Shown here: piece by piece, positions 1 through 60,898 of the stretch
Layout: every line of letters starts with the position of its first letter
Position numbering within the stretch: the stretch's first letter is position 1
Source: a virus
Virus record (IMG/VR): IMGVR_UViG_3300036760_000069
Span: 1-64,000 of that record
Strand: one strand, 5' to 3'
DNA: 64,000 bases
Position numbers and translations under genes: made by a program
The notes under the pieces: model-generated
Seen by the model: the letters and a program-made list of their open reading frames with translations, nothing else
What the model was told of the DNA's origin: nothing
Databases searched by the model: none

Positions 1-219
1 CCGACAAGAGGCAGTTAAGTCCTGCCGTCGTGACACTTTTGGCTTGGGCATTCATCACGGCCTTGACGCGCACACCTGTGGGCACCGTCAAGACTCGCGT
101 GACCGCCGCCGTCCCCGGGTTCGTCACATTCACGTCAAGGATGGCTACGTCCCAGGTAAAGTCGTCGCCCACCTGCGAGAACTTCACCCACTGGGCCGAG
201 CCGTTGGTCAGCCCAGCGC
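1..219. repeat. Direct repeat copy A (tail-tip domain DNA)
   Basis: Bases 1-219 match 59599-59817 almost perfectly; by eye I see two substitutions before about base 215, then divergence. Both copies sit on the same strand inside the C-terminal part of fibre genes. The left window edge falls inside the repeat, so its true left extent cannot be seen here. Confidence 0.9.
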
Positions 220-1321
220 CGATCCGCCTTTTGTAATCGTAGTTCGTGGGCATCGTCGGGGCCGAGGCACTGGTACTACACAGCACATCCACCACGCTCG
301 TATCCGTCCGCTTGATGACGTAGAAGTGATACCATGTGGAGTTTGCAATGGCCCCCGTATCCAGGCACCCTGCCGCCGCACCAACTGCCCATGCCGAGGT
401 CGTCTTTGCGGTCGACGCGGCGAGGGTTAAGGTATCGACGTTGCCAGAGTCTGTGGCTTGCCCAGCGGCGACGGTGAGCGTGGCAGAGGCCCCCGCCGTA
501 CTCATCGTGAGGCCCGCGAGGTACGAACGCGGGATCTGAACGGTGCTGGTAATCGTGATCGTGCCAGCCCCAGTTGAGCAATTTACCCCAGAGGAACAGG
601 ACAGCGACCCAGCAACCGGGATATTGCCAGTGCTACCGATGGCGAGTTGCCCGTTCGTCAAGGCAAGGGACGCAAGGAGCTTGTTGGTGTCGCCATACAC
701 CAACGCTTTTGCCGTCAACCCGGAGTCCGTCAGCCCTGCAAACGTCGGCGAGGCTCCGGTGTCAATGTTCTGCGGGGTCGACAGCGTGAGCGTGCCCGCC
801 CCTGGCGTCACCGTAATCTGGTTGGTCGTGCCAGCAATCGTGCAGACCGCCGGAATGGCCCCGGTCGAGCCGCAAATCATCTGCCCGTTGGTCAGCGCGG
901 CAAAAGACACCAGTGCGCCCGTCGCGTCGATATAAGGAAGCGTCTTGATCGTCAGGCCAGGAATGATCGGGTTCGAGGGAAGCGAGAGCGCGATCGTCCC
1001 AGCCCCTAACGTGACGGTGAGTTGGTTCGCCGTGCCAGCGATCGAGCCGAGAACTGGGGCAACCCCTGTCGATCCAATCAGCAATTGACCGTTTGTCGGG
1101 GATCCAGTGGACTGCAACAAGCCCGCCGCCCCCAAGTACACCATCCCGTTGACGGTCAGGCCGGCACCGCTGATCTTGAGGCCGCCCGTGAAGGTCTTGG
1201 TGCCTGTCACGGTCTGCGCGCTCTCCAGGTTCATCTGGGTCAGCGTGACGGCCTGAGCAGGGCTGACGAACAGCCCAGCTACTAAAATCGCCGCCAGTAG
1301 TTTTTGAATAGTAGTTCGCAT
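1..1321 (-). CDS. Tail-fibre-like protein with signal peptide (3' end cut by window edge)
   Basis: The frame opens at ATG 1321 and stays open to base 1, so the C-terminus lies outside the window (about 440 residues visible). Residues 1-24 form a Sec-like signal (basic start, hydrophobic core, cleavage after PAQA). Then come three spaced copies of a motif like LTNGQLxIGSTGxxPV near residues 76-94, 143-161 and 221-239, and from about residue 266 (PRSYLAGL) a tip domain shared with the fibre at 59384-60898. The start overlaps the upstream stop by one base (TGATG). It is probably a receptor-binding or surface protein; the signal peptide is odd for a virion fibre. Function is inferred from repeats and the shared tip; the family is not named with certainty. 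Confidence 0.75.
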   Translation of the reverse strand, partial: MRTTIQKLLAAILVAGLFVSPAQAVTLTQMNLESAQTVTGTKTFTGGLKISGAGLTVNGMVYLGAAGLLQSTGSPTNGQLLIGSTGVAPVLGSIAGTANQLTVTLGAGTIALSLPSNPIIPGLTIKTLPYIDATGALVSFAALTNGQMICGSTGAIPAVCTIAGTTNQITVTPGAGTLTLSTPQNIDTGASPTFAGLTDSGLTAKALVYGDTNKLLASLALTNGQLAIGSTGNIPVAGSLSCSSGVNCSTGAGTITITSTVQIPRSYLAGLTMSTAGASATLTVAAGQATDSGNVDTLTLAASTAKTTSAWAVGAAAGCLDTGAIANSTWYHFYVIKRTDTSVVDVLCSTSASAPTMPTNYDYKRRIGAGLTNGSAQWVKFSQVGDDFTWDVAILDVNVTNPGTAAVTRVLTVPTGVRVKAVMNAQAKSVTTAGLNCLLS

Positions 1322-1764
1322 CAGCTCACTCCTGCCGATCCCAGCCCGACGGTGATGGTGACGGTGCAGCCCGCGCACCCGGTAATCGGGGCCGCCATGA
1401 GGTTATAGCCAAAGACTCGGCACTCCCAGGCTCCGCTCGTAGTAGTCGACGTCACCGAGACCGTCCGATCCGCCGCGGTAAAGCACTCCTTACTCACGAA
1501 GTTCGTCCCATCCACAGAGGTCTGAAAGGTGACGGTAAAGGCGCCTGTCCCGAACACCTGGATCGTCGCGGTCGTGGCGTTCTTGACGTTCGCCACATTG
1601 CAGGTATTGACGCCAGACGGATTGCCGGAGTCCTTGCAGAGCGCGACCGCGCCCGTGTTGCTTGTCTTCACCGAGGCCAATGTGACGGTCTGGACGGTGA
1701 CAGCCGAGGCCGGTACCGCCAGTATCAACGCGAGCGCGAGCGTCAGGAGGCTAGTTCGCCACAT
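1321..1764 (-). CDS. Small secreted beta-rich protein
   Basis: 147 residues. I chose ATG 1764, preceded by GAGGAG at seven bases; the longer upstream frame has a charged, unlikely N-terminus. Residues 1-21 are a clear signal peptide (MWRTSLLTLALALILAVPASA). The mature part is Ser/Thr/Val-rich with several cysteines (for example CKDSG, NTCN, CFTA, CRVF, CAGC), which would suit disulfides in the periplasm. The start lies 14 bases inside the end of the upstream gene, and the stop overlaps the next start. It is one of four consecutive genes with signal peptides. No family recognised. Confidence 0.7.
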   Translation of the reverse strand: MWRTSLLTLALALILAVPASAVTVQTVTLASVKTSNTGAVALCKDSGNPSGVNTCNVANVKNATTATIQVFGTGAFTVTFQTSVDGTNFVSKECFTAADRTVSVTSTTTSGAWECRVFGYNLMAAPITGCAGCTVTITVGLGSAGVS

Positions 1765-2473
1765 CGGCCGCTCCTCGATAGAGTTCCACCCAGTTCGTGC
1801 CGTCGTAGACAAAGGTGATCGCCCGGCTGAAGCCGTTCGCCGGTTGTGCCCAGGCGGCCCCGAGTTTGTAGAGGGTATCCCATGTCAGTACGCCGAGTGC
1901 CCCGCCGGCGGTATTCCGCACTAGGACCGTCAGATGTTGCCCAGTCGTGGCGGCCGTCGGATTCGCCACGGTAAACGCTGTGCCGTTGGTCGCCGTGATC
2001 CTGAAGGTGTTCCCCAGCGAGGCCGTGATCGTCACGGATGCCCCGTAGGTTGGGTTGACCAACCCCGCCACCACCGCCTTGCTCGCCGTGACGTTGGCGA
2101 CCCCCAGGCTCGTCGTGAGTGTCAGGGCGTTGAAGGTAGGGCTGGCGGTCGTCCGAATGTCCTGGATGGCGTCTAGCGTGAGTGTGCCCGCCCCTACGGT
2201 GGTCGTCAGCGAGGCCAAGGCCCCGATGGCGATGGTACTGGCAACAGGGACGGCCCCCGTCGAGCCGATCAGGAACTGCCCGTTGGTGAGTTGGACGGCT
2301 GTGAGGACTTGCGTGGTGCTGAGATAGAGGGCCGATTTCGCCGTCAATCCGGTGAATTTGGGCGTGCCGCTGATGACGGAGACGGGGCCCCCCGGGTCGA
2401 ACACATCCGCCGCCCTCGCGCTGACAGGGGCAAGGAGAAAGACCGCAAGAAGCGTGGCAAGGATCGGGCGCAT
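1751..2473 (-). CDS. Tail-fibre-like secreted protein
   Basis: 240 residues starting at ATG 2473. Residues 1-22 look like a signal peptide ending ARA-A. One copy of the motif LTNGQFLIGSTGAVPV lies near residues 62-77, the same motif that occurs three times in the neighbouring partial fibre gene. The C-terminal third (AFTVANPT, FVYDGTNWVEL) resembles the beta-sandwich ends common in phage fibres and spikes. It is probably a surface or adhesion protein. No catalytic motif is visible. Confidence 0.7.
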   Translation of the reverse strand: MRPILATLLAVFLLAPVSARAADVFDPGGPVSVISGTPKFTGLTAKSALYLSTTQVLTAVQLTNGQFLIGSTGAVPVASTIAIGALASLTTTVGAGTLTLDAIQDIRTTASPTFNALTLTTSLGVANVTASKAVVAGLVNPTYGASVTITASLGNTFRITATNGTAFTVANPTAATTGQHLTVLVRNTAGGALGVLTWDTLYKLGAAWAQPANGFSRAITFVYDGTNWVELYRGAADVAN

Positions 2474-2474
2474 T

Positions 2475-3137
2475 TTATGGTTGCTGCGTCCAGGTGGCGG
2501 AAATCCCGTAGAGGCGATAGACCCCCGTGTTTTGCATGACGGCTGTGAAATCCATGCCGACTGAGGCGTTCGCCGTGTTCATAAACGCCGGTGTCCCCAC
2601 GCCGCCGGAGGTGAGATAGGGATTGCCTTGCGTGGCCGTTGGGAGCGTGATCGTGATGGCGCCCCCGTAGGCCGCCACGGCGTTCGCCACGTTATTCGCA
2701 TAGGTTGTGGTCGAAAGGGCGTTGAAGGTGTTGCTCGTCAGCGCCGCCGTGCCGATAAAATGCGAGACGCTGAACGCGGTGAGTTTATAGCCTTTGCCGC
2801 TCGTCGTGCGGGTCGGGGCCGGCAGCTCGCACCGGATATTGTACGTCTCGGCGCCGCCCGCCGTGCGCGCCAGCGCCCAATCGTTCGACGCCACGCGGGT
2901 ATTGATGAACAGTGCATTGTCGGACCGGCAAAAGATCACCGCTGAGTAGACCCGCACAATGTCGGTCGGGGCCGTCTGCCCGCTGGCCGTCCAGGTCGTG
3001 CTGTCCGGCATCGTCACCGTGCCGGTAAAAGTCGGCGAGGCGCTGGGCGCGTTCCCGGACGGCTGGGAGATGGTTTGCGCCCACACGGGCGAGCCGGAAA
3101 GCAACATCCATAAGGCAAGGAGGCGCAGGGTCTTCAT
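2475..3137 (-). CDS. Secreted fibre-like protein
   Basis: 220 residues. The start is ATG 3137, overlapping the upstream stop as ATGA; the upstream extension is arginine/glycine-rich and looks untranslated. Residues 1-20 form a signal peptide (MKTLRLLALWMLLSGSPVWA, cut before QTISQ). The segment SPTFTGTVTMPDSTTW is typical of fibre shafts. The remainder is beta-rich and Thr/Asn-rich with two cysteines (ICRS, IRCE). No enzyme motif is seen. It lies one base pair from the next gene, so the two are probably translationally coupled. Confidence 0.7.
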   Translation of the reverse strand: MKTLRLLALWMLLSGSPVWAQTISQPSGNAPSASPTFTGTVTMPDSTTWTASGQTAPTDIVRVYSAVIFCRSDNALFINTRVASNDWALARTAGGAETYNIRCELPAPTRTTSGKGYKLTAFSVSHFIGTAALTSNTFNALSTTTYANNVANAVAAYGGAITITLPTATQGNPYLTSGGVGTPAFMNTANASVGMDFTAVMQNTGVYRLYGISATWTQQP

Positions 3138-3718
3138 CCGACCACCGCCGCAGCGGCCTTCTCCGCGAGGGCCTGCGCCTTGCCGATCAGCTCGTCCAGC
3201 TTCGTCTGTCTGGATTTGATGTCCTCGTCCATGGCGTCGAGGCGACCCTGCCGGTCCCGTTGCGTGCCGGCAAAGTCCTCCTGGGCCTGCCGTGCCTGTC
3301 GGGCGAGATCCGCGAGGGCGTTCCGGGTGGCTTCCTCGGCCTCGGCCCGTTCCTTCCCCAAGGCGTCCAGTTTGTCGTCGTGGGCGCAACAGGCCGCGCT
3401 GTGCTTCTCGTCCAGCTCCGCCTTCTTATCCTCAAGGGCCTTTTCAAGGAGGGCCTTCTCACTCTTGAGTTGTTCGTCAAGGGCCTCGATCTCGCCCTGC
3501 TTGGCATCGGCCTGCGCCTGGAGGGCGTCCACCTGCGCGCTGAGAGAAGACGCTTCGTTCCGATAGGCGACGAGACGGGCTCCCGCCTGCCCCAGTACCT
3601 TGAGAACAGTCTGCAACCGCCCCAGCGTCGAATAGAACTGGAGGAGGTCGCCGAGTTGGCGCGCCGCTTCCTCGTATTCTTGCGGGGTGATGTCTTGATC
3701 TACGATGGGGTTTGCCAT
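3134..3718 (-). CDS. Coiled-coil protein
   Basis: 194 residues, ATG 3718, with an AAGGAGAGG-type ribosome site upstream. Residues from about 55 to 185 are almost continuous charged heptads rich in Ala, Glu, Lys, Leu and Gln, predicting a long coiled coil. One unusual cluster (SAACCAHD, near residue 108) interrupts it. The N-terminal 50 residues look globular. No signal peptide. A trimerising or chaperone role for the surrounding fibre-like proteins would fit, but this is only inference. Confidence 0.7.
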   Translation of the reverse strand: MANPIVDQDITPQEYEEAARQLGDLLQFYSTLGRLQTVLKVLGQAGARLVAYRNEASSLSAQVDALQAQADAKQGEIEALDEQLKSEKALLEKALEDKKAELDEKHSAACCAHDDKLDALGKERAEAEEATRNALADLARQARQAQEDFAGTQRDRQGRLDAMDEDIKSRQTKLDELIGKAQALAEKAAAAVVG

Positions 3719-5843: not shown

Positions 5844-5890
5844 TATTTACCCCCCCCCGCGCACTGGCTCAGAATGCGGATCGTCGCCAT
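5843..5890 (-). CDS. Possible 15-codon ORF coupled to the next gene
   Basis: ATG 5890 is preceded by AAGGAG at a good distance, reads MATIRILSQCAGGGK, and stops in TAATG shared with the next start. Codons 11-14 lie on a run of nine G (bases 5850-5858). It could be a leader peptide that couples translation to the 120-residue protein, or simply a ribosome-loading site. Too short to assign. Confidence 0.35.
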   Translation of the reverse strand: MATIRILSQCAGGGK

Positions 5891-5951
5891 CAGGAACTCC
5901 TTTTACACCCGCCCGCCCCGGGCCGCTCTTGAATCGCGCCCGTGTCCCGTC

Positions 5952-8444: not shown

Positions 8445-9377
8445 TTAGATGATGACTGTCACCAGCGCCCCACCCGAACCGGCCCCGACGGTGCCCTTGA
8501 AGTTGTTCGTGATATTGGCGATGGTATTGCCGCTCGCGTTCTTGACCGGGCCGGTGACGAGCGAGTTGAACAGGTTCTCCTCGATCTCGATGCCCGCCAC
8601 CTGATCCGCGCCCGTCAGGTCGATACCGACCGTCAAGGCCGTGCCGTAGCTGTGGATGCGGTTGTTGCCGATCCGCAACCCCAGACAGCCGGCGCCCGTC
8701 TGAATCCCCACGGCCCAGGAGCCCGCCGTGTTGTAGATGAAGTTCCCCTCGATCCGGCTGTGCAGGAGGGCTGTGGCGTCAATCGCCGGCCCCTGCGCGC
8801 CGTCCGCATTGAACTCGCACCCCGTAATCAGCACACCCGTCGCGGCCCCCGTCGCCACGATCCCCTTGGTGGCGATGTTCACCACCGGGGTATTCATGTC
8901 GAAGTGGCACCCTTTGACCCGGAGGTTGATGGCGGCGACCGTGAAGTCAAGAAATGACTTGGCCGTAACCGGAACGCACGTCACGCCCACCATGGTAAAG
9001 TCCGTCCCGGTGACGGTGATGCCCTTGTTGGCGGCGAAGGCCGTCAGCACCGCGCTCGGCTTGGCAGCGTCCATCCCGTAGAACGCCTCCGGGCCGTAGA
9101 TCTTCACATTGTTGGCTGTGACCGCCAAGGCCGCCGTCAGCGTATGCGCGCCAGGGAGTAGGACGATGCAATCGCCTCTCCCGCTCACTACATCGGCATA
9201 GGCGGCGTTGACATCGTTGTAGACGTACTTGTGCCGGCCCCGGACATACGCATTGTGCGTCGAGGCGGATCCGGGCAGGACGAACAGCGGCGTGCCGGGG
9301 ATCAGGTTCCCCATGCCGTTTGCTTTTTCGTCGGTGAACTGTTGCCAGGCGTATTTGTCGCGGATTGTGAGACTCAT
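8445..9377 (-). CDS. Right-handed beta-helix protein
   Basis: 310 residues, ATG 9377 with AAGGAGAT upstream. From about residue 85 the sequence shows repeating short hydrophobic turns typical of pectate-lyase-like parallel beta-helices (VKIYGPEAF, GITVTGTDFTMVGV, INLRVKGCHFDMN, GVLITGCEFNADG, SRIEGNFIYN, LRIGNNRIHSYG, IEIEENLFNS). Such folds serve as tailspikes or capsid-surface decorations, some with polysaccharide lyase activity; no catalytic residues can be assigned by eye. Its place close behind the capsid gene favours a surface role. Confidence 0.75.
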   Translation of the reverse strand: MSLTIRDKYAWQQFTDEKANGMGNLIPGTPLFVLPGSASTHNAYVRGRHKYVYNDVNAAYADVVSGRGDCIVLLPGAHTLTAALAVTANNVKIYGPEAFYGMDAAKPSAVLTAFAANKGITVTGTDFTMVGVTCVPVTAKSFLDFTVAAINLRVKGCHFDMNTPVVNIATKGIVATGAATGVLITGCEFNADGAQGPAIDATALLHSRIEGNFIYNTAGSWAVGIQTGAGCLGLRIGNNRIHSYGTALTVGIDLTGADQVAGIEIEENLFNSLVTGPVKNASGNTIANITNNFKGTVGAGSGGALVTVII

Positions 9378-10186: not shown

Positions 10187-11131
10187 TTAGCCGGTGACGT
10201 AGATGACCCGCGCCTCCCCGTCGTTGGCCGTGTTCCAGGTCTCGCCGAACGCGAGCATCCCGAACCATCCCACTGACCGCTGGAGGCCGAAATTCCCAGG
10301 AATGGCCGCCCGCAGTTCCGGCGACAGCACTTCCGCCATCAGCACCGGCTCCTCGCCGAACACCAGCACCTCGCCCAGCACCGAGCCTGTGCCCTTGGTG
10401 TTGGAGAGGGCATTGCTGTGCGTGATCTCGATCAAGCGGATATGCTCGATCATCCCCGCTTCGCCCCGGTAGAACGCCATGTCCGGCTGAATGTACCGGC
10501 GCCAGTCCACGAACTCTGGATCGTCCTTCACCCCACGCAACGCCTTCGTGGCCGCCAGCCCGATCCAGTCGTCCCCTTCGTAGGGCTCGGCGTGGATCGT
10601 CGACGCCAGATAGTCCCGGAGCTGCTTACAGTGATAGACGTTGAAGTTCGAGGTCGCCGTCCCGCTGGTCGCGTTCGTGGTGAACGTCCCCGTGGTCGTC
10701 GACGTGGGCGCGTACCGGATCTGACAGCCCTTGAAGGTCGTGAACACCGTCGTATCCAGGACCAGCTTCATCGTCTTGATGAGCGACCGCTGGATGAAGT
10801 CCTTCGGATCGAACAGCGACAGGAGTTCCGTCTCCTCGTCGTACTCGACCGCCCGCCCGTACTTCGACACCGTGATCGTGGTCGTCGAGAGGGTCAGGCT
10901 GTCCACCGGGACTTTCTGGTTCCGGCCGATGACGGCCGAGGTCGGCTCGGAAATGTTCCGAACACGCGGAATGGTAACGGTATCGCCCTGGTGCCGGCCA
11001 TAGCCGTCCACGGGCTTGACGAATTGCAGGCCCTTCGTCTCGGCGATGCTCGCGTAGCGGAGCTTCTTCGAGAGCGCCCGGTTCCGCATCGTCCCGGATG
11101 GCATGTCCGGAATCCATTGCAATGAACTCAT
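10187..11131 (-). CDS. Major capsid protein
   Basis: 314 residues, ATG 11131 with an AGGAGG ribosome site. The order of elements fits an HK97-fold coat protein of the N4 gp56/P22-like type: N-terminal segment with RNRALSKKLRYASIAETKG, a beta-rich domain (GDTVTIPRVRNISE, ITVSKYGRAVEYDEETEL), a spine-helix region (DFIQRSLIKTMKLVLDTTVF), and a C-terminal part ending GWFGMLAFGETWN. A scaffold-like gene lies just upstream, as usual for coat proteins, and the portal and terminase lie further upstream. I cannot tell the subfamily with certainty. It is probably the most strongly expressed gene here, and hairpins flank the downstream cistrons. Confidence 0.85.
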   Translation of the reverse strand: MSSLQWIPDMPSGTMRNRALSKKLRYASIAETKGLQFVKPVDGYGRHQGDTVTIPRVRNISEPTSAVIGRNQKVPVDSLTLSTTTITVSKYGRAVEYDEETELLSLFDPKDFIQRSLIKTMKLVLDTTVFTTFKGCQIRYAPTSTTTGTFTTNATSGTATSNFNVYHCKQLRDYLASTIHAEPYEGDDWIGLAATKALRGVKDDPEFVDWRRYIQPDMAFYRGEAGMIEHIRLIEITHSNALSNTKGTGSVLGEVLVFGEEPVLMAEVLSPELRAAIPGNFGLQRSVGWFGMLAFGETWNTANDGEARVIYVTG

Positions 11132-26819: not shown

Positions 26820-27124
26820 TAGCTCACCTTCTTGAACTCGTGATACCAAATCGTTTGTTTGGGGTCATAGCCCTTGCGCGGATGGATTTTCTCCCAGATG
26901 GCGATGAAGGCCTCGGAAGTCTCGAACCCTTCCTGGCGGTATCGAGCCTGGGCGACAAAACCGAGAGAGTGCGGCCTGACCAGCGTGAACTCAAACTGCT
27001 GACCGAACACGTAAAAGACATCGCCAGGCTTCCCCAACGGCTTCGTCCTGCTGGTAGCTGTCTTGCGTCCAGAGCACAGCCGCTCCTCGAACTCAGGCAG
27101 GAAGCGAATCACGCTCTGCTTCAT
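26819..27124 (-). CDS. ASCH-domain-like protein
   Basis: 101 residues, ATG 27124. The phrases LPEFEERLCSGRKTATSRTK, KPGDVFYVFGQQFEFTLV and KIHPRKGYDPKQTIWYHEF match the ASCH fold, a small beta barrel proposed to bind RNA or modified nucleotides, with Lys/Arg-Thr-T lining the pocket. Full length. It overlaps the methyltransferase gene upstream by one base, which may link it to nucleotide or base-modification handling. Confidence 0.75.
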   Translation of the reverse strand: MKQSVIRFLPEFEERLCSGRKTATSRTKPLGKPGDVFYVFGQQFEFTLVRPHSLGFVAQARYRQEGFETSEAFIAIWEKIHPRKGYDPKQTIWYHEFKKVS

Positions 27125-28530
27125 CAGTTGCCTTTCCGCACGAACAACGGCGCAACGGCCGTGATGCGGGCGTCGGCCAGCGCGATGTAGTCTGGGTTCA
27201 GTTCGATGCCGACGAACTCACGGCCGAGGCGGAGGGCGACCGCCCCAACAGTTCCACTGCCCGTAAAAGGATCGAAGACCACGCAGGGCACCGGCTCGCC
27301 CGCCTTCTTGCAGGCACAGGTCGGGCGCCAGCCAGTCGTCATGGCCTGCGGGAACGCGTTATCGTGATCGTTGCCTCGCGCCCGCTTCTCTTGCCGTACC
27401 ATCGCCAGCCTGTTCGCCGTCGAGCCCTTAGGGTAGGCCGTGCCGGTTGCGCCCTTGTGCGGGATGATCTCCTTCTCGACCACCCGCGCCCACGGCGCCA
27501 TGCACTTACTACAGGCACCGCGCTCGCTGGTGCCGGCGAGGATGCACGGCTCGACCAACTTCTCAGGGAAGGTGGCGAAGTGGGCCTCTTTGAACGGCAT
27601 CGTGGGGATCGTCCAGACGGTGCGCTTGTTGCGGGTCAGCGTTGGATAAGTGTCAGCTCGATCAGGTCGATGCGTACCGACGGTCTGCCCAGGATGCACT
27701 GCTGCTCGTTTTGAGTTTTCGCGTCGAAAGTTATCTCTCGCTGATGGCTTGCTGTACGTGGTGTCGGCATGGGTGCAGGGTTCAGCGATCGCCTCTGCAT
27801 CGTAGTAGTACGTCTGGCTCTTGGTGAGCAGGAATAGGTACTCATGCGCCTTAGTTGGGCGGTCCGTCACCGACTCTGGCATGGGGTTGGGCTTGGCCCA
27901 GATAATGTCGCTCCGCAGCCACCAGCCGTCCGCTTGCAGCGCGAAGGCCACGCGCCAGGGGATGCCGACGAGGTCTTTGGACTTTAATTCCAAAAACTCT
28001 TTTTTCTCGCGGATGGACGCCCCCGATTTTTTTGCAGCGTCGTTCTTCCCGCCCGATGAGCCGCCCCATTTACCAGTAGAAGCATACGTATCTCCGAGGT
28101 TCAGCCAGAGCGTGCCGTCGCTGCGGAGGACGCGGCGCACGTCGCGGAAGACTTCGACGACATGCTCGACGTAGAGGTCGACCGAGGATTCTAAGCCGAG
28201 CGAGCCCGCCCACGCCCCACAAGCTGAACAGACGGCTCCATGGCGAATCTCCTGCCGCTTCCAGCCGACCCGTTTCTCTGGTGCGACCTGCTCGTCCCGT
28301 CCGTTGCGCGTATGTTGCCACCGCCGCTTATCGGTGTAGTTCGTCTCCGAGGTAGCCACCACATCCCGCCAGTCGTGTTCGCAACTTTGTGCCCCCCCCC
28401 AGACCTGCGGCGGGATCTTGTAGTCGCGTAGACCCCAATACGGCGGGCTCGTACACACCATCTGCACCGACTCCGCCGGCATCGTCGCCAGCTCCGTCAG
28501 CACATGGCCCTGGTGGAGGGTGTAGTTCAC
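27124..28530 (-). CDS. DNA methyltransferase (N4/N6 type)
   Basis: 468 residues. Motif IV TSPPYWGLRDY (27-37) marks an amino-methyltransferase working on N4-cytosine or N6-adenine; the SAM-binding FDPFTGSGT lies late (about 419-427) followed by REFVGIELNPDYI, so the order is the beta class. A cysteine cluster (CSACGAW, CSKCMAPW, CACKKAG) may bind zinc in the target-recognition part. It overlaps the cytosine methyltransferase gene by four bases, so the two act together, most likely protecting phage DNA from host restriction. Codons 44-47 contain a G9 run. Confidence 0.88.
   Translation of the reverse strand: MNYTLHQGHVLTELATMPAESVQMVCTSPPYWGLRDYKIPPQVWGGAQSCEHDWRDVVATSETNYTDKRRWQHTRNGRDEQVAPEKRVGWKRQEIRHGAVCSACGAWAGSLGLESSVDLYVEHVVEVFRDVRRVLRSDGTLWLNLGDTYASTGKWGGSSGGKNDAAKKSGASIREKKEFLELKSKDLVGIPWRVAFALQADGWWLRSDIIWAKPNPMPESVTDRPTKAHEYLFLLTKSQTYYYDAEAIAEPCTHADTTYSKPSARDNFRRENSKRAAVHPGQTVGTHRPDRADTYPTLTRNKRTVWTIPTMPFKEAHFATFPEKLVEPCILAGTSERGACSKCMAPWARVVEKEIIPHKGATGTAYPKGSTANRLAMVRQEKRARGNDHDNAFPQAMTTGWRPTCACKKAGEPVPCVVFDPFTGSGTVGAVALRLGREFVGIELNPDYIALADARITAVAPLFVRKGN
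28392..28400. repeat. Poly-G (coding strand) tract of nine in the methyltransferase gene
   Basis: Nine consecutive C on the plus strand, giving TGG GGG GGG GCA on the coding strand at codons 44-47. A one-base slip would truncate the enzyme near its N-terminus. Confidence 0.85.
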
Positions 28531-32293: not shown

Positions 32294-32914
32294 TTAATAG
32301 CCGTGGTTCGCTCGCCAGTTCAGGACGGCCGCCATCGACAGGGCGGCGATCTCCGTGGCGGCGTCCGGGTACACGATCACTTCCTTGTAGTCGGTGGTGC
32401 GCCCGTCAATGTAGAGGATCAGCAACTGGCGGGCCTTCTCGTAGCCCTCCAGAAAGCGGTACAGCATGACCTGCACCTTATGCTCCGGTTGCACCGTGCC
32501 GGTCTTGAGGTCGGGGATCGTCAGGATCTGCTTCTTCCCGTACCAGCCATCACAATCCGGCGTGCCAGCGATGCCGTAGCGGTCGTTCTTTGAGGCCTGC
32601 TCGACCCAGCGCGGCTTGAAGCCGGTGTCGTTCACCCACTTGAGCATCGCGGCGTGAGCATAGTAGAGCCGCTCGTCTTCAAAGTTGACGGCGGGGGCAT
32701 CACACAGCCCTTGCATCGAGGCTAAAAGCGTGGCGAATAATCTGTGCGCCTTGTTGCCAAACAGGATCGCGGCCTCCAGCGTGTCCTCATCCACAAAGGC
32801 GAACGGGTCGCGCCCTGTCAGCGCGTGCGTGATCGCCGACACCGGCCGGTAGATTTTTCCGGCCTCGTCTTGGTAGGCGCGGTTCTCGCGGTCTTCGTTA
32901 ATTACTGTGAGCAT
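32294..32914 (-). CDS. PD-(D/E)XK exonuclease-like protein
   Basis: 206 residues. It shows the Cas4/RecB-like order: RWVEQ with Glu105, GTPDCDGWY with Asp120, IPDLKTG with Asp135 and Lys137, then [13 protein letters not shown]. These are the metal-binding and catalytic residues of PD-(D/E)XK nucleases. Such genes act in phage recombination with an annealing protein; the 230-residue protein upstream probably partners it. An HNH gene is inserted between these two. Confidence 0.8.
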
Positions 32915-33336
32915 CTAGCGTTCTTCATTCTTTGGTCGTAATCTCTGCATCGTTGCAACGTACAAGTTCTACAGTGGCGATTTCGCCTGCCCGTCTTGCT
33001 CCAATAGGTGTTCTTTTTGTCGTAGCGATGCCCCTTCGGACAGTACGTTTTAAGAATGTTCTTTGCTCCAACACCAACGCCGCGCATAATGTTAACTTTT
33101 CTAGTGACTGGTTCTAGATGAGAGACATTAAGACAGGCTCTGTTGCGACAGAGATGGTCAAGCTCAAGTCCATCTGGAATTGGACCATGAGCCTGCTCGT
33201 AGGCGAAGCGATGAACCCGCACCATTTTCCCATTCAGTTTGAACCGCCCATATCCATTATCCAGTTTGCCTGTCCAGACGATGCACGCACCTTCGCAGCG
33301 CGTCTTCTCGTCGATTCGTTTAAGTCCGGTCAGCAT
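32902..33336 (-). CDS. HNH homing endonuclease
   Basis: 144 residues. The HNH core is [20 protein letters not shown] then [10 protein letters not shown], with Asp60-His61, Asn70 and His73, followed by a CPKGH...CRTC zinc motif. It is inserted between the exonuclease and its partner gene and overlaps the exonuclease start by 13 bases. The DNA is visibly AT-richer than around it, the usual mark of a mobile free-standing endonuclease gene. A close relative lies at 50882-51307. Confidence 0.88.
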
Positions 33337-50597: not shown

Positions 50598-50889
50598 GGC
50601 TCACCTCCTCACGTTGCTCGACCTGAATAAACCGATACCCACATTCCGGCACCGTCGCAATTCCCACCGGCACCTGTGGAAAGATCCGACAGAGATCCGG
50701 GCGCGTCTCGTAGATGCGGCACTTCGCCATCCCGTTCTCCCAGATCAGTTCCGAACACTCACCGCTCCCGTCCGCCTTGAGGGCGGGAAACACCACCGAC
50801 ACCTGCGGGTTGCCTTGAAAGGCCGCCAGACTGCAGCAGCGCCCGCAGAAGCGTGAGCATGATCCGGTGCGCGTGAGCGGTTCAGGCAT
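50578..50889 (-). CDS. YkgJ-like cysteine-cluster protein
   Basis: 103 residues. The spacing CSRFCGRCCSLAAFQ near the N-terminus, GECSEL, AKCRIYETRPDLCRIFP and PECGYRF fits the YkgJ/UPF0153 family, whose eight or so cysteines hold a zinc or iron ion; its biochemical role is unknown. Complete. It lies between a virion-protein gene and an HNH gene, overlapping both slightly. Confidence 0.75.
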   Translation of the reverse strand: MPEPLTRTGSCSRFCGRCCSLAAFQGNPQVSVVFPALKADGSGECSELIWENGMAKCRIYETRPDLCRIFPQVPVGIATVPECGYRFIQVEQREEVSHAPVSA

Positions 50890-51307
50890 TGGCCGCCCTC
50901 GATATTTGATGTCTATTCCGGTCGCACATTCGACATCGACGCCTCACTCCTTGATGGATAGCCGTATTGGCTTTGTCGTAAACGTGACCTTTCGGACACG
51001 CTTTTTTCGCTGCATTCATAGCCGCAATCGTATCGCCTCGGAGGACGTTTACTTTTCCTGTCACAACCTCTAGATGATCTGGATTGACACAGCGGATGTT
51101 CCGACATAGATGGTCGATCTGTAGGCCGTCAGGTATCGGCCCGTGCGCCAGTTCGTAAGCGAAGCGATGCGCGTATACCTGTCGCGTGCCGTTCCAAAAT
51201 ACGCCGTACCGGTTGCCATTGGCAGCGCCTGTCCAGACATCGCAGTCCCTGATACTTTGTACGAACAAGGCAAAACGCTCTGCTGCTGGTTTATGTGGTC
51301 TGCTCAC
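50882..51307 (-). CDS. HNH homing endonuclease
   Basis: 141 residues. HNH core [20 protein letters not shown] then CVNPDHLEVVTGKVN, followed by CPKGHVYDKANT and CRMCDRNR as zinc ligands. It is clearly related along its whole length to the HNH protein at 32902-33336. It overlaps the 3' end of the PAPS-reductase-like gene by 17 bases. Local AT-richness supports a recent insertion. Confidence 0.88.
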   Translation of the reverse strand: MSRPHKPAAERFALFVQSIRDCDVWTGAANGNRYGVFWNGTRQVYAHRFAYELAHGPIPDGLQIDHLCRNIRCVNPDHLEVVTGKVNVLRGDTIAAMNAAKKACPKGHVYDKANTAIHQGVRRRCRMCDRNRHQISRAANA

Positions 51308-54240: not shown

Positions 54241-54777
54241 ATGGTAAAAATCTGTACAAAATGTAAACGAAAACTCACACTGAAGTCGTTTAATAAATCC
54301 TCCGGCAAACGCTTTGGCCGGCATAATCTTTGTAGAGTCTGTCATCGTATTGATTCTCAAAGGCGGTATATTCCACGCCCACGAATTAAGAAAACGCACT
54401 GCAAGCAGTGCGCTGTTCGCCTTACAAACGAGAACTGGGCTCCGTCTTGCAGGGATAGCCGTAGCTATTCGTGTAGAACGTGCCATAACGCGATGTGCAG
54501 GCAACGCAACCTTCGCATGAGACTTGAGGTGTTGAGCGCTTACGGAGCTATATGCGTCTGTTGTGGAGAGACTCGGCAACAGTTCCTTGGGTTTGATCAT
54601 ATCAATGGGGGTGGTACTCAGCACCGCAGAGAAGTTGGAGATGGCGACCAATTCTATAGGTGGTTGAGGCGTGAAGATTACCCTCTTGGCATTGTTCAGG
54701 TGATGTGCCACAACTGTAACATGGCAAAAGGCTTCTATGGCCAGTGCCCGCACGTTCTTGAACAGAAAACACATTAA
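54241..54777 (+). CDS. HNH endonuclease, the only plus-strand gene
   Basis: 178 residues. Three CxxC pairs in the N-terminal half (CTKCKRK, CRVCHRID, CKQC, CRTCHNA) form zinc knuckles, followed by an HNH core CVCCGETRQQFLGFDHINGG and VMCHNCNMAKG. AT-rich compared with its surroundings. It has its own promoter and runs opposite to all other genes; its stop overlaps the stop of the converging gene. It is a mobile endonuclease that probably arrived as a unit. Confidence 0.88.
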   Translation: MVKICTKCKRKLTLKSFNKSSGKRFGRHNLCRVCHRIDSQRRYIPRPRIKKTHCKQCAVRLTNENWAPSCRDSRSYSCRTCHNAMCRQRNLRMRLEVLSAYGAICVCCGETRQQFLGFDHINGGGTQHRREVGDGDQFYRWLRREDYPLGIVQVMCHNCNMAKGFYGQCPHVLEQKTH

Positions 54778-56357
54778 GCAGCCCTTCCTGGAGTATATCG
54801 TATAGCCGTGTCCATCACCGCGAAATTCTGCCCCGCTCCGCTGTTATACCCAATCAGTTTAGTGAAGATCGCCTCGCCAGTCAATTCATGTTTCACGGTC
54901 GAGACGGTCTTGCCGGCCATCACATCAGCGTCCAGCGACATCGACCCGACCGCCCCACCAGGGGTATTCATCGAATAGGCCAGCGTCTGACTCAGCACGC
55001 CATCCCGATGTACCTCCATCGTCAGATCCCAATTCCCTTGCGGGTCCATGGTGAGCTGCAACTCATGCAGGTTCGAGAACTGCCCGACCCCACTGGGCGC
55101 GACCGGCGGACACTCGTACTGTCCGTTGTACCCCGCCCCATTCTTGCTCCGTGTAGCCTGATCCATGTCGTAGAGATTCCCCGAGCTGTCGCCGAAGCAG
55201 GGTTTGAGGATCGCCGTGGTGGTCGCCCGACGCATCCCCAGCGCAGGGCAGGTGTCCCGGCTCGACCAGAAGAACTTCGGCGCGCCTGGCATGTGCAGGT
55301 CGAGGATGATCCGCGCATCGCAGACGGTGCTGGTGCCGGACGGCACGGCGAAGTGCAATTGCCGTTTGGATCCATACCAGCGTCCACGGACAAGATCCAG
55401 CCGGCTCAGGTTCAGCTTTTCCTTGATGAACTGCGCGGTCTCCATCGGGAGGAAGGGTGGCACCGAGACCTGCCCCTGCGTCTGAATCTGCGAGAGCGAA
55501 TAGAGAAAGCCGTCCGTGGCGAGCATGACAATATCGTCCTCGATCACCACCGCACTCTCGGGGCTGGCCACCCCGATGGCCTCGGTGATCTTCGGCACGC
55601 TCCAGTTGGCGATCGAGGGGTCCGTATCGTTCAGGACAAAAATGCCACGAGGGAACTTCCACAGGTAGAGGATTTCCCGCCAGGAGGCCCCGGCGACCAA
55701 CCGTTCCCCTGAACCAGGATAGACGGGCTGGACAAACGATTCGCCTCCGTTATAATCGTTCTCGGAGCCGGGGACCGTGCCGTAGATGTTATGGGGAAAG
55801 TTGGCGTTGCCGAACCCGATCATGCGTGCCCGGTGTGAGACCGGCGTGGTCGGCCAGTTGGCTACCGTCCAGTCCAGCGGGAGTTGTCCGGGCCCGCCGC
55901 CACCCGTCAGTACCGTGGCCGTGGCCCCACCCGTGTACGACATAGGATTGTCGAGGTTGCTGAAAATGTAGAGCGTCTTAGTGGTGCCGTTCCATCCCTC
56001 GGAAAAGGTGATGTAGCTCCCCGTCGTCAAGCCGGAGATCAGCGTCTTCACAACCGCCCCCGATGCGGGCACGACCACGATGCTGACCGAGATGCCGTTG
56101 TCGATGGCGGTAATGTCCTCCTGCACACCTGCCCCAGAGATGAACTGCCAATGCGCCTTGACCGCCCAGGTGCCAGCCCCGCCCGAGAGAGGCGTGGTGT
56201 TGACCAACGCCGCACCGGGCTCCTTCTCGATGAGGTCACGCTCCACTGTCACAGTGTCGGCATAGGTCAGGTCGGAGGTTGGCATCCTGGTCAAGGCCTT
56301 GCTCCGATTGATCCCCCCGGCACCGCCAGGAATCGTGATGGTTTGCAGATCACGCAT
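54774..56357 (-). CDS. P22 gp10-like tail hub/packaged-DNA stabilisation protein
   Basis: 527 residues. The beginning ITIPGGAGGINRSKAL and the repeating beta segments (ERLVAGASWREILYLWKFPR, IEDDIVMLATDGFLYSLSQI, RDTCPALGMRRATTTAIL) fit the beta-propeller tail-hub proteins of podoviruses. It lies next to the gp4-like protein, the usual partner. These proteins plug and stabilise packaged DNA. Assignment is by architecture and synteny, so moderate confidence. Confidence 0.65.
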   Translation of the reverse strand: MRDLQTITIPGGAGGINRSKALTRMPTSDLTYADTVTVERDLIEKEPGAALVNTTPLSGGAGTWAVKAHWQFISGAGVQEDITAIDNGISVSIVVVPASGAVVKTLISGLTTGSYITFSEGWNGTTKTLYIFSNLDNPMSYTGGATATVLTGGGGPGQLPLDWTVANWPTTPVSHRARMIGFGNANFPHNIYGTVPGSENDYNGGESFVQPVYPGSGERLVAGASWREILYLWKFPRGIFVLNDTDPSIANWSVPKITEAIGVASPESAVVIEDDIVMLATDGFLYSLSQIQTQGQVSVPPFLPMETAQFIKEKLNLSRLDLVRGRWYGSKRQLHFAVPSGTSTVCDARIILDLHMPGAPKFFWSSRDTCPALGMRRATTTAILKPCFGDSSGNLYDMDQATRSKNGAGYNGQYECPPVAPSGVGQFSNLHELQLTMDPQGNWDLTMEVHRDGVLSQTLAYSMNTPGGAVGSMSLDADVMAGKTVSTVKHELTGEAIFTKLIGYNSGAGQNFAVMDTAIRYTPGRAA

Positions 56358-56360
56358 AAA

Positions 56361-57269
56361 TCAGACCCCCAACCCGAATCGCGGACGGAACCAGAGCCGT
56401 TGCTTCGAGGTCGGCTTGAGGTAGGTGTCGACCATCTGGGCAATCTTCTGGTCGGCGCGGATCCACGCCGAGTCCGCAAGGTTGTCGTTCTTCCCCCGCC
56501 AGAGATGCCACTTGGCCCGCTCGGCGATCACCCACCGATCTTGGAGCGGGAGGACCGGCGTATCCGTCCCTGCCACCCCGTCATAGGTCAACGTCTGGAA
56601 CTTTGTAAACTCGTATTCCATATTGACCTGCAACTCCGTCCAGGGGGCAATCTGGATCTGGATAGACTTCGCCGCCCCGCCGCCTGGATCGTAGTCGCGG
56701 ATGATCGTTGCCACTTCCGTCAGACCTACGGCCGCGACCCGTGCCCAACCGTACTTGGCCTTAAACTCGTTTTCGTTGATGAGCGCGACTTCCCCCTCAT
56801 ACTGCCCGCGCAGATAGAGCGGCCCCCAGACCTTCATGGCCGACGAGTCCAGCGCGTATTCGTCCTGATAGATGACCCCCGCCCCGGATGCCTGTGTCTC
56901 TACATAGGTCGCGTCCAGCGTCAGCACCGCCGTCCCCGCTGTGTGCGCGCTGATGCGGTACATGGCCTGGTTCGCCGTGACGTAGAACTTTCTCCCGGCC
57001 TGCGAGGTCGCAATCACGGCCGACAGCGTGACCGTCGTTCCGACAATGCTGGAGACGGTGACATTCTGGCTGGCAACCGTCGTCACCACCTTGGGGGGGT
57101 GCCCCAGCGCGAACCGCCACTTGTTCAGGCACAGGATCTCCCAGTAGTTGAGATTGAGGGCCGCTTTGGCGCGGGTCGCATAATCGTCTGAGGTGGACGT
57201 ACTCTGTCCCACATCCTTCATCAGGTACTGAAAGAGGTCAAGCCCGGTGGCGAGGTCGTCGAGGGCCAT
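56361..57269 (-). CDS. P22 gp4-like head-tail adaptor
   Basis: 302 residues. N-terminal helices (RAKAALNLNYWEILCLNKW) and C-terminal helices (RWVIAERAKWHLWRGKNDN, DSAWIRADQKIAQMVDTYLK) surround a beta-rich insertion (residues ~60-170) containing VTVSSIVGTTVTLSAVIAT. The helical ends match the first ring that binds the portal in podoviruses. The beta insertion is larger than in P22 gp4. It precedes the gp10-like gene by three bases. Confidence 0.65.
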   Translation of the reverse strand: MALDDLATGLDLFQYLMKDVGQSTSTSDDYATRAKAALNLNYWEILCLNKWRFALGHPPKVVTTVASQNVTVSSIVGTTVTLSAVIATSQAGRKFYVTANQAMYRISAHTAGTAVLTLDATYVETQASGAGVIYQDEYALDSSAMKVWGPLYLRGQYEGEVALINENEFKAKYGWARVAAVGLTEVATIIRDYDPGGGAAKSIQIQIAPWTELQVNMEYEFTKFQTLTYDGVAGTDTPVLPLQDRWVIAERAKWHLWRGKNDNLADSAWIRADQKIAQMVDTYLKPTSKQRLWFRPRFGLGV

Positions 57270-59383: not shown

Positions 59384-60898
59384 TTAGTCGTCCCTCCCGC
59401 GCCGATCAATCCAGCCGGTTGTAGCAATCACCAAGGCATCGGAGCCTGCACTCGCACTAAATCGAGACCGAATAGACGCACTGGTGTCTGTCCATATCCC
59501 CAGTTGTGCGAACGGGCCTCCCGTGAGATTCCCCCCGTATCCCATATTCCCTAATGGAGCCACCGTGAGACTGGCGGCGGCATCCGTAATAGCCAAATCC
59601 GACAAGAGGCAGTTAAGTCCTGCCGTCGTGACACTTTTGGCTTGGGCATTCATCACGGCCTTGACGCGCACACCTGTGGGCACCGTCAAGACTCGCGTGA
59701 CCGCCGCCGTCCCTGGGTTCGTCACATTCACGTCAAGGATGGCTACGTCCCAGGTAAAGTCGTCGCTCACCTGCGAGAACTTCACCCACTGGGCCGAGCC
59801 GTTGGTCAGCCCCGAGCCGATCCGACGCTTGTAATCGTAGTTGGCGGGCATCGTCGGCGCGGTCGCACTCAACGAGATCAGCACGTCAGTCACGCCTGTA
59901 TTGCTGCGCAGAATGGCCCAGAAGTGATACCAGGTCGAGTTCGCAATCGCGCCGGTGTCGAGGCCCCCCGCTGCCGTGCCGACAGACCACGCCGAGGTCG
60001 TTTTCGCAATCGCGGCGACCGTGATATTCTTGGCGTTCGTGCTGTCCAGACAGGTTCCAGCGGCAATGGACATGGTGGCAGAACTGCCCGCCGTCGACAT
60101 GCCCAACCCGGCGAGATAGGAGCGCGGCAGCGACACAATGTCCGACACCAGCGTCTTCTTCTTTTTGTTTGAGTCTGAGACATCGGCGATGGCGACATAA
60201 TCACCTGATGCCGCTATTACCGTCGTCAGATCGTTGACCACCGAATCATTCAGCATCGCGCCGGTAATGGCCCCCGCCACGACGCCCACCGCGTTCTCGC
60301 TCGTCCCCAATGCCCCCAACGTCGCCCGCGCCGCCGCCGCCGTGGTGTCGTCCAGCACCGTCGTCATAAACGCCGTCACGGGCGGGCTGGTCAGGCCCCC
60401 GCTACTGGCAATCGGATTGCCGGAGGCGTCGAACGCCAGGAACTTGCTCGCCCGATCCGTCGCCGACGGCAGGGTCGTCTTCGCCGCTGTCCCCACCTCC
60501 GTCTCCGGCAGATGCAACGAGCGGTTCACCATATCCTCGATCTGCTGGACCATCCGCACGCTCTGATCGAACGTGTCCTCGATCGTCTCCAGGTTGAACG
60601 CGCCCTGGTTGCGAAGGTCCGCGCTCTGCTGCGTGGTGCGCTTGAAGCGCAGCGTCAACAGGTAGTTCAACGTGAGATTGCCCGCGACCAGGGTAATGGT
60701 CCCGCCGTTCGGGTTGTTGATGTCCGCCGCCGGGATTGTAAAGTCCGTGGTGTAGACGAGCGTCGTCTCCACGCCAGCCGTATCGGCCTTCGTGACCAGC
60801 AGGTCCGTTGCGGCAAAGATTTTAAAGCCAAAGGCATAGGCCGCCAGGGCGCCCGTGCCGATGTAGTCGTTGCGGGGAGGGGTCGTGGAGAAGGACAT
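59384..60898 (-). CDS. Tail fibre protein (T7 gp17-type N-terminus)
   Basis: 504 residues, ATG 60898. The first ~130 residues carry the phage T7 tail-fibre anchor pattern (YAFGFKIFAATDLLVTKADT, NPNGGTITLVAG, LRNQGAFNLETIEDTFDQSV, NRSLHLPETEVG), which attaches to the podovirus tail. A linker (TTVLDDTTAAAARATLGALG) follows, then from PRSYLAGL (~260) a tip domain shared with the gene at 1-1321. The product should trimerise and recognise the host surface. Confidence 0.88.
   Translation of the reverse strand: MSFSTTPPRNDYIGTGALAAYAFGFKIFAATDLLVTKADTAGVETTLVYTTDFTIPAADINNPNGGTITLVAGNLTLNYLLTLRFKRTTQQSADLRNQGAFNLETIEDTFDQSVRMVQQIEDMVNRSLHLPETEVGTAAKTTLPSATDRASKFLAFDASGNPIASSGGLTSPPVTAFMTTVLDDTTAAAARATLGALGTSENAVGVVAGAITGAMLNDSVVNDLTTVIAASGDYVAIADVSDSNKKKKTLVSDIVSLPRSYLAGLGMSTAGSSATMSIAAGTCLDSTNAKNITVAAIAKTTSAWSVGTAAGGLDTGAIANSTWYHFWAILRSNTGVTDVLISLSATAPTMPANYDYKRRIGSGLTNGSAQWVKFSQVSDDFTWDVAILDVNVTNPGTAAVTRVLTVPTGVRVKAVMNAQAKSVTTAGLNCLLSDLAITDAAASLTVAPLGNMGYGGNLTGGPFAQLGIWTDTSASIRSRFSASAGSDALVIATTGWIDRRGRDD
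59599..59817. repeat. Direct repeat copy B (tail-tip domain DNA)
   Basis: Near-identical to bases 1-219 (two substitutions by eye before about base 215). The similarity continues at lower identity towards 60120 at protein level. Confidence 0.9.

Follow-up and report, generated by a model that had tools for sequence, protein, structure and literature searches.

Tip exchange between phages is a known kind of event. The Alteromonas phages A5, V22 and P24 have a receptor-binding module in common on unrelated virions, with the mosaic boundary inside the fibre genes (PMC10579305); fibre exchange in P2 and other phages is reported by Haggard-Ljungquist 1992, as cited in the same paper. Other described systems are close to the locus considered here. 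In the Bcep22-like phages (Lessievirus) and in Parlo (JC1, PMC9144972; MK618715), with genomes of ~60 kb, the gene order is portal, capsid, several fibre genes, a tail closure (nozzle) protein, a protein of ~400-510 aa and a giant DarB; JC1 is circularly permuted (PMC9144972). The T7-like podoviruses of 40-48 kb (Pseudomonas phage AF; IMG/VR contigs L024 and L051) carry tail tubular proteins A and B, a phrog_212 capsid, a phrog_332 portal and the T7-type fibre N-terminus. The MAT (mosaic adhesive trimer) fibres of Bdellovibrio are exported proteins with a signal peptide, a conserved ~130-aa beta-domain and then a varied, phage-like trimeric tip at the C-terminus (PMC10769870).

The window analysed here is bases 1-64000 of an 87,117-base linear IMG/VR record. 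Window base 1 is the contig edge, and the contig runs on to 87117. Two genes of the window carry the same type of tip domain on different anchors, and the features that concern them are as follows.

2..1321, minus strand: left-edge gene, 440 aa to the contig edge, with a signal peptide, NGQLLIGSTG-type shaft-like repeats and a C-terminal tip domain
1250..1321, minus strand: signal-peptide-like residues 1-24 of the left-edge protein (heuristic score only)
2..535, minus strand: tip domain of the left-edge protein (residues 263-440), lacking its final ~72 residues, which fall past the contig edge
1321-1764, 1751-2473 and 2475-3138, minus strand: three consecutive genes with signal-peptide-like N-termini, fibre-like or beta-rich; the third was recognised by eye (MKTLRLLALWMLLSGSPVWAQ)
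59384..60898, minus strand: T7-type tail fibre gene, 504 aa
60506..60898, minus strand: T7-type N-terminal anchor of the fibre, residues 1-131 (phrog_1640, Dpo31/36)
59384..60130, minus strand: tip domain of the fibre, 248 aa; in the model preferred below, 59384-59598 would be the end of the signal-peptide gene of phage A
116..214, no strand: informative near-identical stretch, compared with 59714-59812; mismatches at 116 and 169, identity dropping sharply past 214

The left-edge gene starts with an ATG at 1321 and its frame runs off the contig edge; it is truncated because base 1 is that edge. The signal-peptide anchor named in the original prediction is borne out by our own heuristic predictor, which finds Sec-export features (n-region, hydrophobic core and AXA cleavage site) in the N-terminus MRTTIQKLLAAILVAGLFVSPAQA/VT. 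The other anchor was also named correctly as that of a T7-type fibre: residues 1-131 match phrog_1640 (E 1.3e-23) and residues 3-133 match Dpo31/36 in the PDB (E 3.5e-14), while no Pfam model matched the gene 59384-60898 at E 0.01. What the two proteins have in common is ~180 C-terminal tip residues, up to the contig edge. We also observe that 1-3138 (minus strand) holds four signal-peptide-like, fibre-like or beta-rich genes in a row within a phage late module, which is unusual for virion proteins.

At the DNA level, 1-423 and 59599-60018 align with 86% identity, and the mismatches fall at positions 116, 169, 215, 217, 227, 229, 230 and 245 and then become ever denser. It had been claimed that the two copies differ at about two sites before base 215 and then lose identity quickly; the counts agree, with 2 mismatches between bases 1-214 and 59599-59812 and 57 over the 210 aligned columns that follow. 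By a maximum chi-square scan the breakpoint falls at column 214, and the observed value was reached in 0 of 2000 shuffles. Comparison with related phages supports the same picture. Over tip residues 1-106 the nearest relative of the left protein is L117 (77%) and that of the fibre L113/L114 (73%), the identity between the two proteins being 71%; over tip residues 106-176 they are 99% identical, against 62% for the next-best relative. Recent recombination within the tip gene is shown by these results, and we hold with very high confidence that the mosaic is real and not a matter of chance. It differs from the case of the Alteromonas phages in that the near-identity of the DNA is limited to the C-terminal part of the tip and one of the carriers has a signal peptide.

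Both edges of the contig lie in repeats, designated T and R. In the plus orientation its layout is T-a-R-x-T-b-R, where the parts are as follows.

1..115, no strand: tract T, left copy, at the contig edge; exactly equal to 59599-59713, and probably the same locus traversed again, or else sequence common to two phages
116-27844: segment a, 27.7 kb
27124-28530, minus strand: DNA methyltransferase gene containing R
27845..27971, no strand: tract R, internal copy, within the DNA methyltransferase gene; equal to 86991-87117
27972-59598: segment x, 31.6 kb
59599..59713, no strand: tract T, internal copy
59714-86990: segment b, 27.3 kb

The last 172 bases of the contig (to 87117) match window 27800-27971 with 1 mismatch, and the final 127 (86991-87117) are identical to window 27845-27971. 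Contigs broken by a repeat or by genome-shared sequence are known to keep end overlaps of exactly maxK, for which 127 is a common setting in metaSPAdes (PMC10914622). The right-end overlap is thus as expected of a metaSPAdes break at k=127, provided that this was the assembler. At the left end the exact overlap is 115 bases, not 127, which leaves 12 bases unaccounted for. If the left edge joins 59598, as we argue below, bases 1-115 and 59599-59713 may be one and the same locus, so that 1-115 should not be counted as an independent copy. What speaks for exchange is the comparison of bases 116-214 with 59714-59812, together with the sharp break. A search of the virus collection with an exact 29-mer from T returned no other contig that carries T. 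Open antisense frames on the plus strand of T were also considered and are put down to a by-product of codon bias.

Two unrelated capsid-portal sets are encoded on the contig, one of them in segment a, whose carrier we call phage A, and the other in segment b. The features of module a are the following.

5853..5893, minus strand: 41-bp tract, 97.6% against contig 73222-73262 in module b
8445..9377, minus strand: 310-aa gene of module a, 39% against contig 76114-77049 of module b
10187..11131, minus strand: major capsid protein of module a (phage A); phrog_1357/544, L104 (75%) and L111
13214..15235, minus strand: portal protein of module a (SU10-type); PF23899, phrog_1216, L104/L111/L112

Module a is syntenic over at least 7 genes with the 15-kb contig L111, in which a matching terminase was found. 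A single-sequence search with its portal gave no relatives; a search by alignment with L104 found L111 and L112, and among named isolates the matches were weak and confined to CRP/HTVC115P-type phages. Neither the portal nor the capsid matched Parlo or 45A6, and we do not file phage A as a member of the Bcep22/Parlo type. No recognisable nozzle of its own was seen in module a. Its JAB-domain peptidase gene (PF14464; 17206-17619, minus strand) has a counterpart at the same place in L111. Module b (59-85 kb) encodes a terminase, a phrog_332 portal, a phrog_212 capsid, tail tubular proteins A and B, an internal virion protein, the T7-type fibre and a spanin pair, and has its own adaptor and nozzle. 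For nozzle and adaptor, no sequence match was obtained in the PDB. Its relatives are tens of syntenic T7-like contigs and isolates, mostly of 40-48 kb, whereas this contig has the late 27 kb only.

Modules a and b have four collinear tracts in common, in the same order and orientation: T, R, the 41-bp tract and the 310-aa gene. In b the 41-bp tract opens a 79-aa gene, whereas in a it is a remnant of 15 codons immediately ahead of the next gene; the idea that it is a shared promoter is therefore rejected. As to the 310-aa gene, the A-type contig L111 is nearer to the b copy than to the a copy; both homologous copies adjoin capsid genes, and the two capsid genes are unrelated. Given these four common tracts and the T and R boundaries on either side of each, a and b could be allelic modules of a single shared backbone instead of belonging to two independent phages. 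Oligonucleotide and codon statistics give no separation of a, x and b, codon use being similar along the contig.

In segment x, the following genes are relevant to the closure of phage A.

35547..49394, minus strand: DarB-like protein, 4615 aa; in Bcep22/Parlo-type phages it follows the fibre genes
54774..56357, minus strand: probable tail nozzle ("phage stabilization protein") of phage A, from a match at E 2e-3 and from gene order
56361..57269, minus strand: gene paired with the nozzle; homologue at the same place in MW202601 (phmmer, 8e-5)

The nozzle pair is followed by a 399-aa gene and then by the gene for the DarB-like protein, in which strawberry-notch helicase (AAA_34, Helicase_C_4), ParB and weak DnaJ matches are found. 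The giant gene lies on the same side of the late genes in Ruegeria phage 45A6. In MW202601 the order is capsid, fibre, a 312-aa gene and "phage stabilization protein", and the last two match 56361-57269 and 54774-56357, respectively, both weakly (E-values as above). The order portal, capsid, fibres, nozzle, DarB appears in phage A only if its genome closes at T. Since a has no recognisable nozzle, x has one and b has its own tail, x should follow a, and base 1 most likely joins 59598; on this reasoning 1-59598 is probably the closed genome of phage A, a circle of 59,598 bases (~59.6 kb). The frame joined from 1321-1 to 59598-59384 is open and would encode a 511-aa signal-peptide protein ending GWIDRRGRDD; an open joined frame is expected anyway, because the left gene is homologous to the fibre. 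Phage A differs from the Bcep22-like phages and Parlo in that its proteins, save a few, are too diverged for a direct match, and in that its genes at 1-3.1 kb have signal peptides. Segment x also contains a homologous (55%) pair of HNH-like genes (32902-33336 and 50882-51307, minus strand) and a PAPS reductase-type gene (PF01507; 51291-52136, minus strand).

We put at about 0.8 the probability that the contig combines two phages or variants. We know of no single phage with two complete unrelated particle modules, and a composite contig is therefore the better reading. The contig would be a path T-a-R-x-T-b-R through the assembly graph of two or more phages that occurred together. Phage A would be a short-tailed phage with a Bcep22/Parlo/SU10-like gene order and a genome that closes on itself at T; its left-edge gene would encode, after a signal peptide, a shaft of repeats and a tip of the receptor-binding type, whose missing end is 59598-59384. 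Phage B would supply the T7-like virion module (59714-87117), including the N-terminal anchor of the fibre. Recombination within the conserved tip gene would recently have exchanged the C-terminal ~70 or more residues of the tip between these lineages, with the breakpoint near base 214-230, and near-identical tip ends would thus stand on two different anchors. The narrower proposal that phage A is a circle closing at T, with b foreign to it, is the one to which we incline on the basis of gene order. There are points against this account: the left overlap has the wrong length, the oligonucleotide and codon statistics do not tell a, x and b apart, the tracts common to a and b would also suit allelic modules, several homologies to x are weak (E 8e-5 and 2e-3), and the 29-mer search gave no second contig with T.

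The tracts common to a and b permit another arrangement, which we consider unlikely, namely that two phages share the 31.6-kb backbone x and differ in a virion module of ~27 kb, either a or b, having crossed over at R, within the methyltransferase gene, and at T, within the tip gene; the near-identity of the tips would then be the rim of a much larger exchange. In agreement with this, a (27.7 kb) and b (27.3 kb) are each flanked by T and R, in matching order and orientation, and have two more collinear tracts in common; if both modules ran into x in the assembly graph, the contig would be expected to break off at both its ends. However, b has its own adaptor, nozzle and spanins, while x carries the A-type tail pair and DarB, and the genes of x are absent from the T7-like relatives tested, save for one weak match. 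It is still less probable that one real genome, or a pair of tandem prophages, exceeding 87 kb carries both genes and that the tip was copied by gene conversion between the fibre and the exported protein of one phage: both genes do lie on one assembled contig with similar codon use along it, but the two capsid and two portal genes are of unrelated types, both contig ends lie in repeats, one of exactly 127 bases, and gene order explains the left edge as joining 59598. The original prediction spoke of gene conversion or domain shuffling of the tip between a tail fibre and an exported protein. We retain recent recombination in the tip, and its shuffling on many anchors, including signal-peptide ones; for the reasons just given (the two portal/capsid sets, the repeat-bounded ends and the gene order that places the left-edge gene before 59598) we do not retain the placement of both copies in one phage.

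The concern that the left copy is an artefact caused by the repeat is justified for bases 1-115, as noted above. That the assembler put fibre sequence onto the end of an unrelated gene is nevertheless very improbable; bases 1-115 are indeed exact and at the contig edge, but 116-214 carry 2 differences, and beyond base 115 the longest exact runs common to the left gene and the fibre are 52 and 45 bases. At k of 53 or more, a de Bruijn assembler could not cross over on runs of this length, so that bases 116-535 of the left gene are real, separate sequence, and the left copy as a pure artefact is rejected. Besides, the N-terminal part of its tip is nearest to L117, which also has a signal-peptide anchor, and not to the fibre. 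Ancient paralogy under strong constraint on the DNA, with no recent exchange, is hardly credible. We found no point in its support; the 71 near-identical codons show 1 synonymous and 1 non-synonymous difference, whereas the 24 codons next to them have 5 of each, and within this block no other family member exceeds 62% identity. Recent exchange of the C-terminal part of the tip between two phages is the most likely reading.

The tip domain is predicted, at high confidence, to be all-beta (mean pLDDT 91.7) and matches phage tail-fibre proteins, such as that of Rhizobium phage Palo (E 1.6e-15). Its best PDB fold match is Bd2133, an exported fibre of Bdellovibrio, although the match is weak (E 9.2e-4, TM 0.30). 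At least 358 virus contigs carry the domain, as do 13 genome contigs, mostly of Rhizobiales and Burkholderiales. Anchors vary widely among the 111 tip proteins examined, with ~9 distinct T7-type N-termini and with signal-peptide anchors at five distinct loci other than the present one (L117, L120, L127/L128, L131 and L141). At L141 there is an adjacent second signal-peptide gene with tail-fibre homology. N-terminal fibre domains of the GPKPQF... type are found both with and without a signal peptide.

We presume that the tip of the fibre binds the host receptor. Provided that it is made as predicted, the exported protein would bring the same type of tip to the periplasm or to the cell surface, where by analogy it could occupy the receptor. 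In T5 superinfection exclusion, the receptor is occupied by another kind of protein. Alternatively, the exported protein could serve as an adhesin, like the MAT fibres of Bdellovibrio (PMC10769870), which differ in being encoded by the bacterium.

The locus is probably an instance of a receptor tip recently exchanged between phages whose virions are unrelated, and its breakpoint is mapped. Such an exchange can yield a composite contig in a public virus collection; the 87-kb record would be annotated as a two-capsid phage. If segment x is shared, the event would be a swap of the whole particle on a constant backbone: the backbone would comprise the methyltransferases, the DarB-like giant protein and lysis, and the virion modules would be Bcep22/SU10-like in one case and T7-like in the other, with the tip end, and possibly the receptor too, kept when the particle was swapped. 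The recurrence of signal peptides on tip proteins, here and at the five other loci, raises the question of the role of an exported phage fibre.
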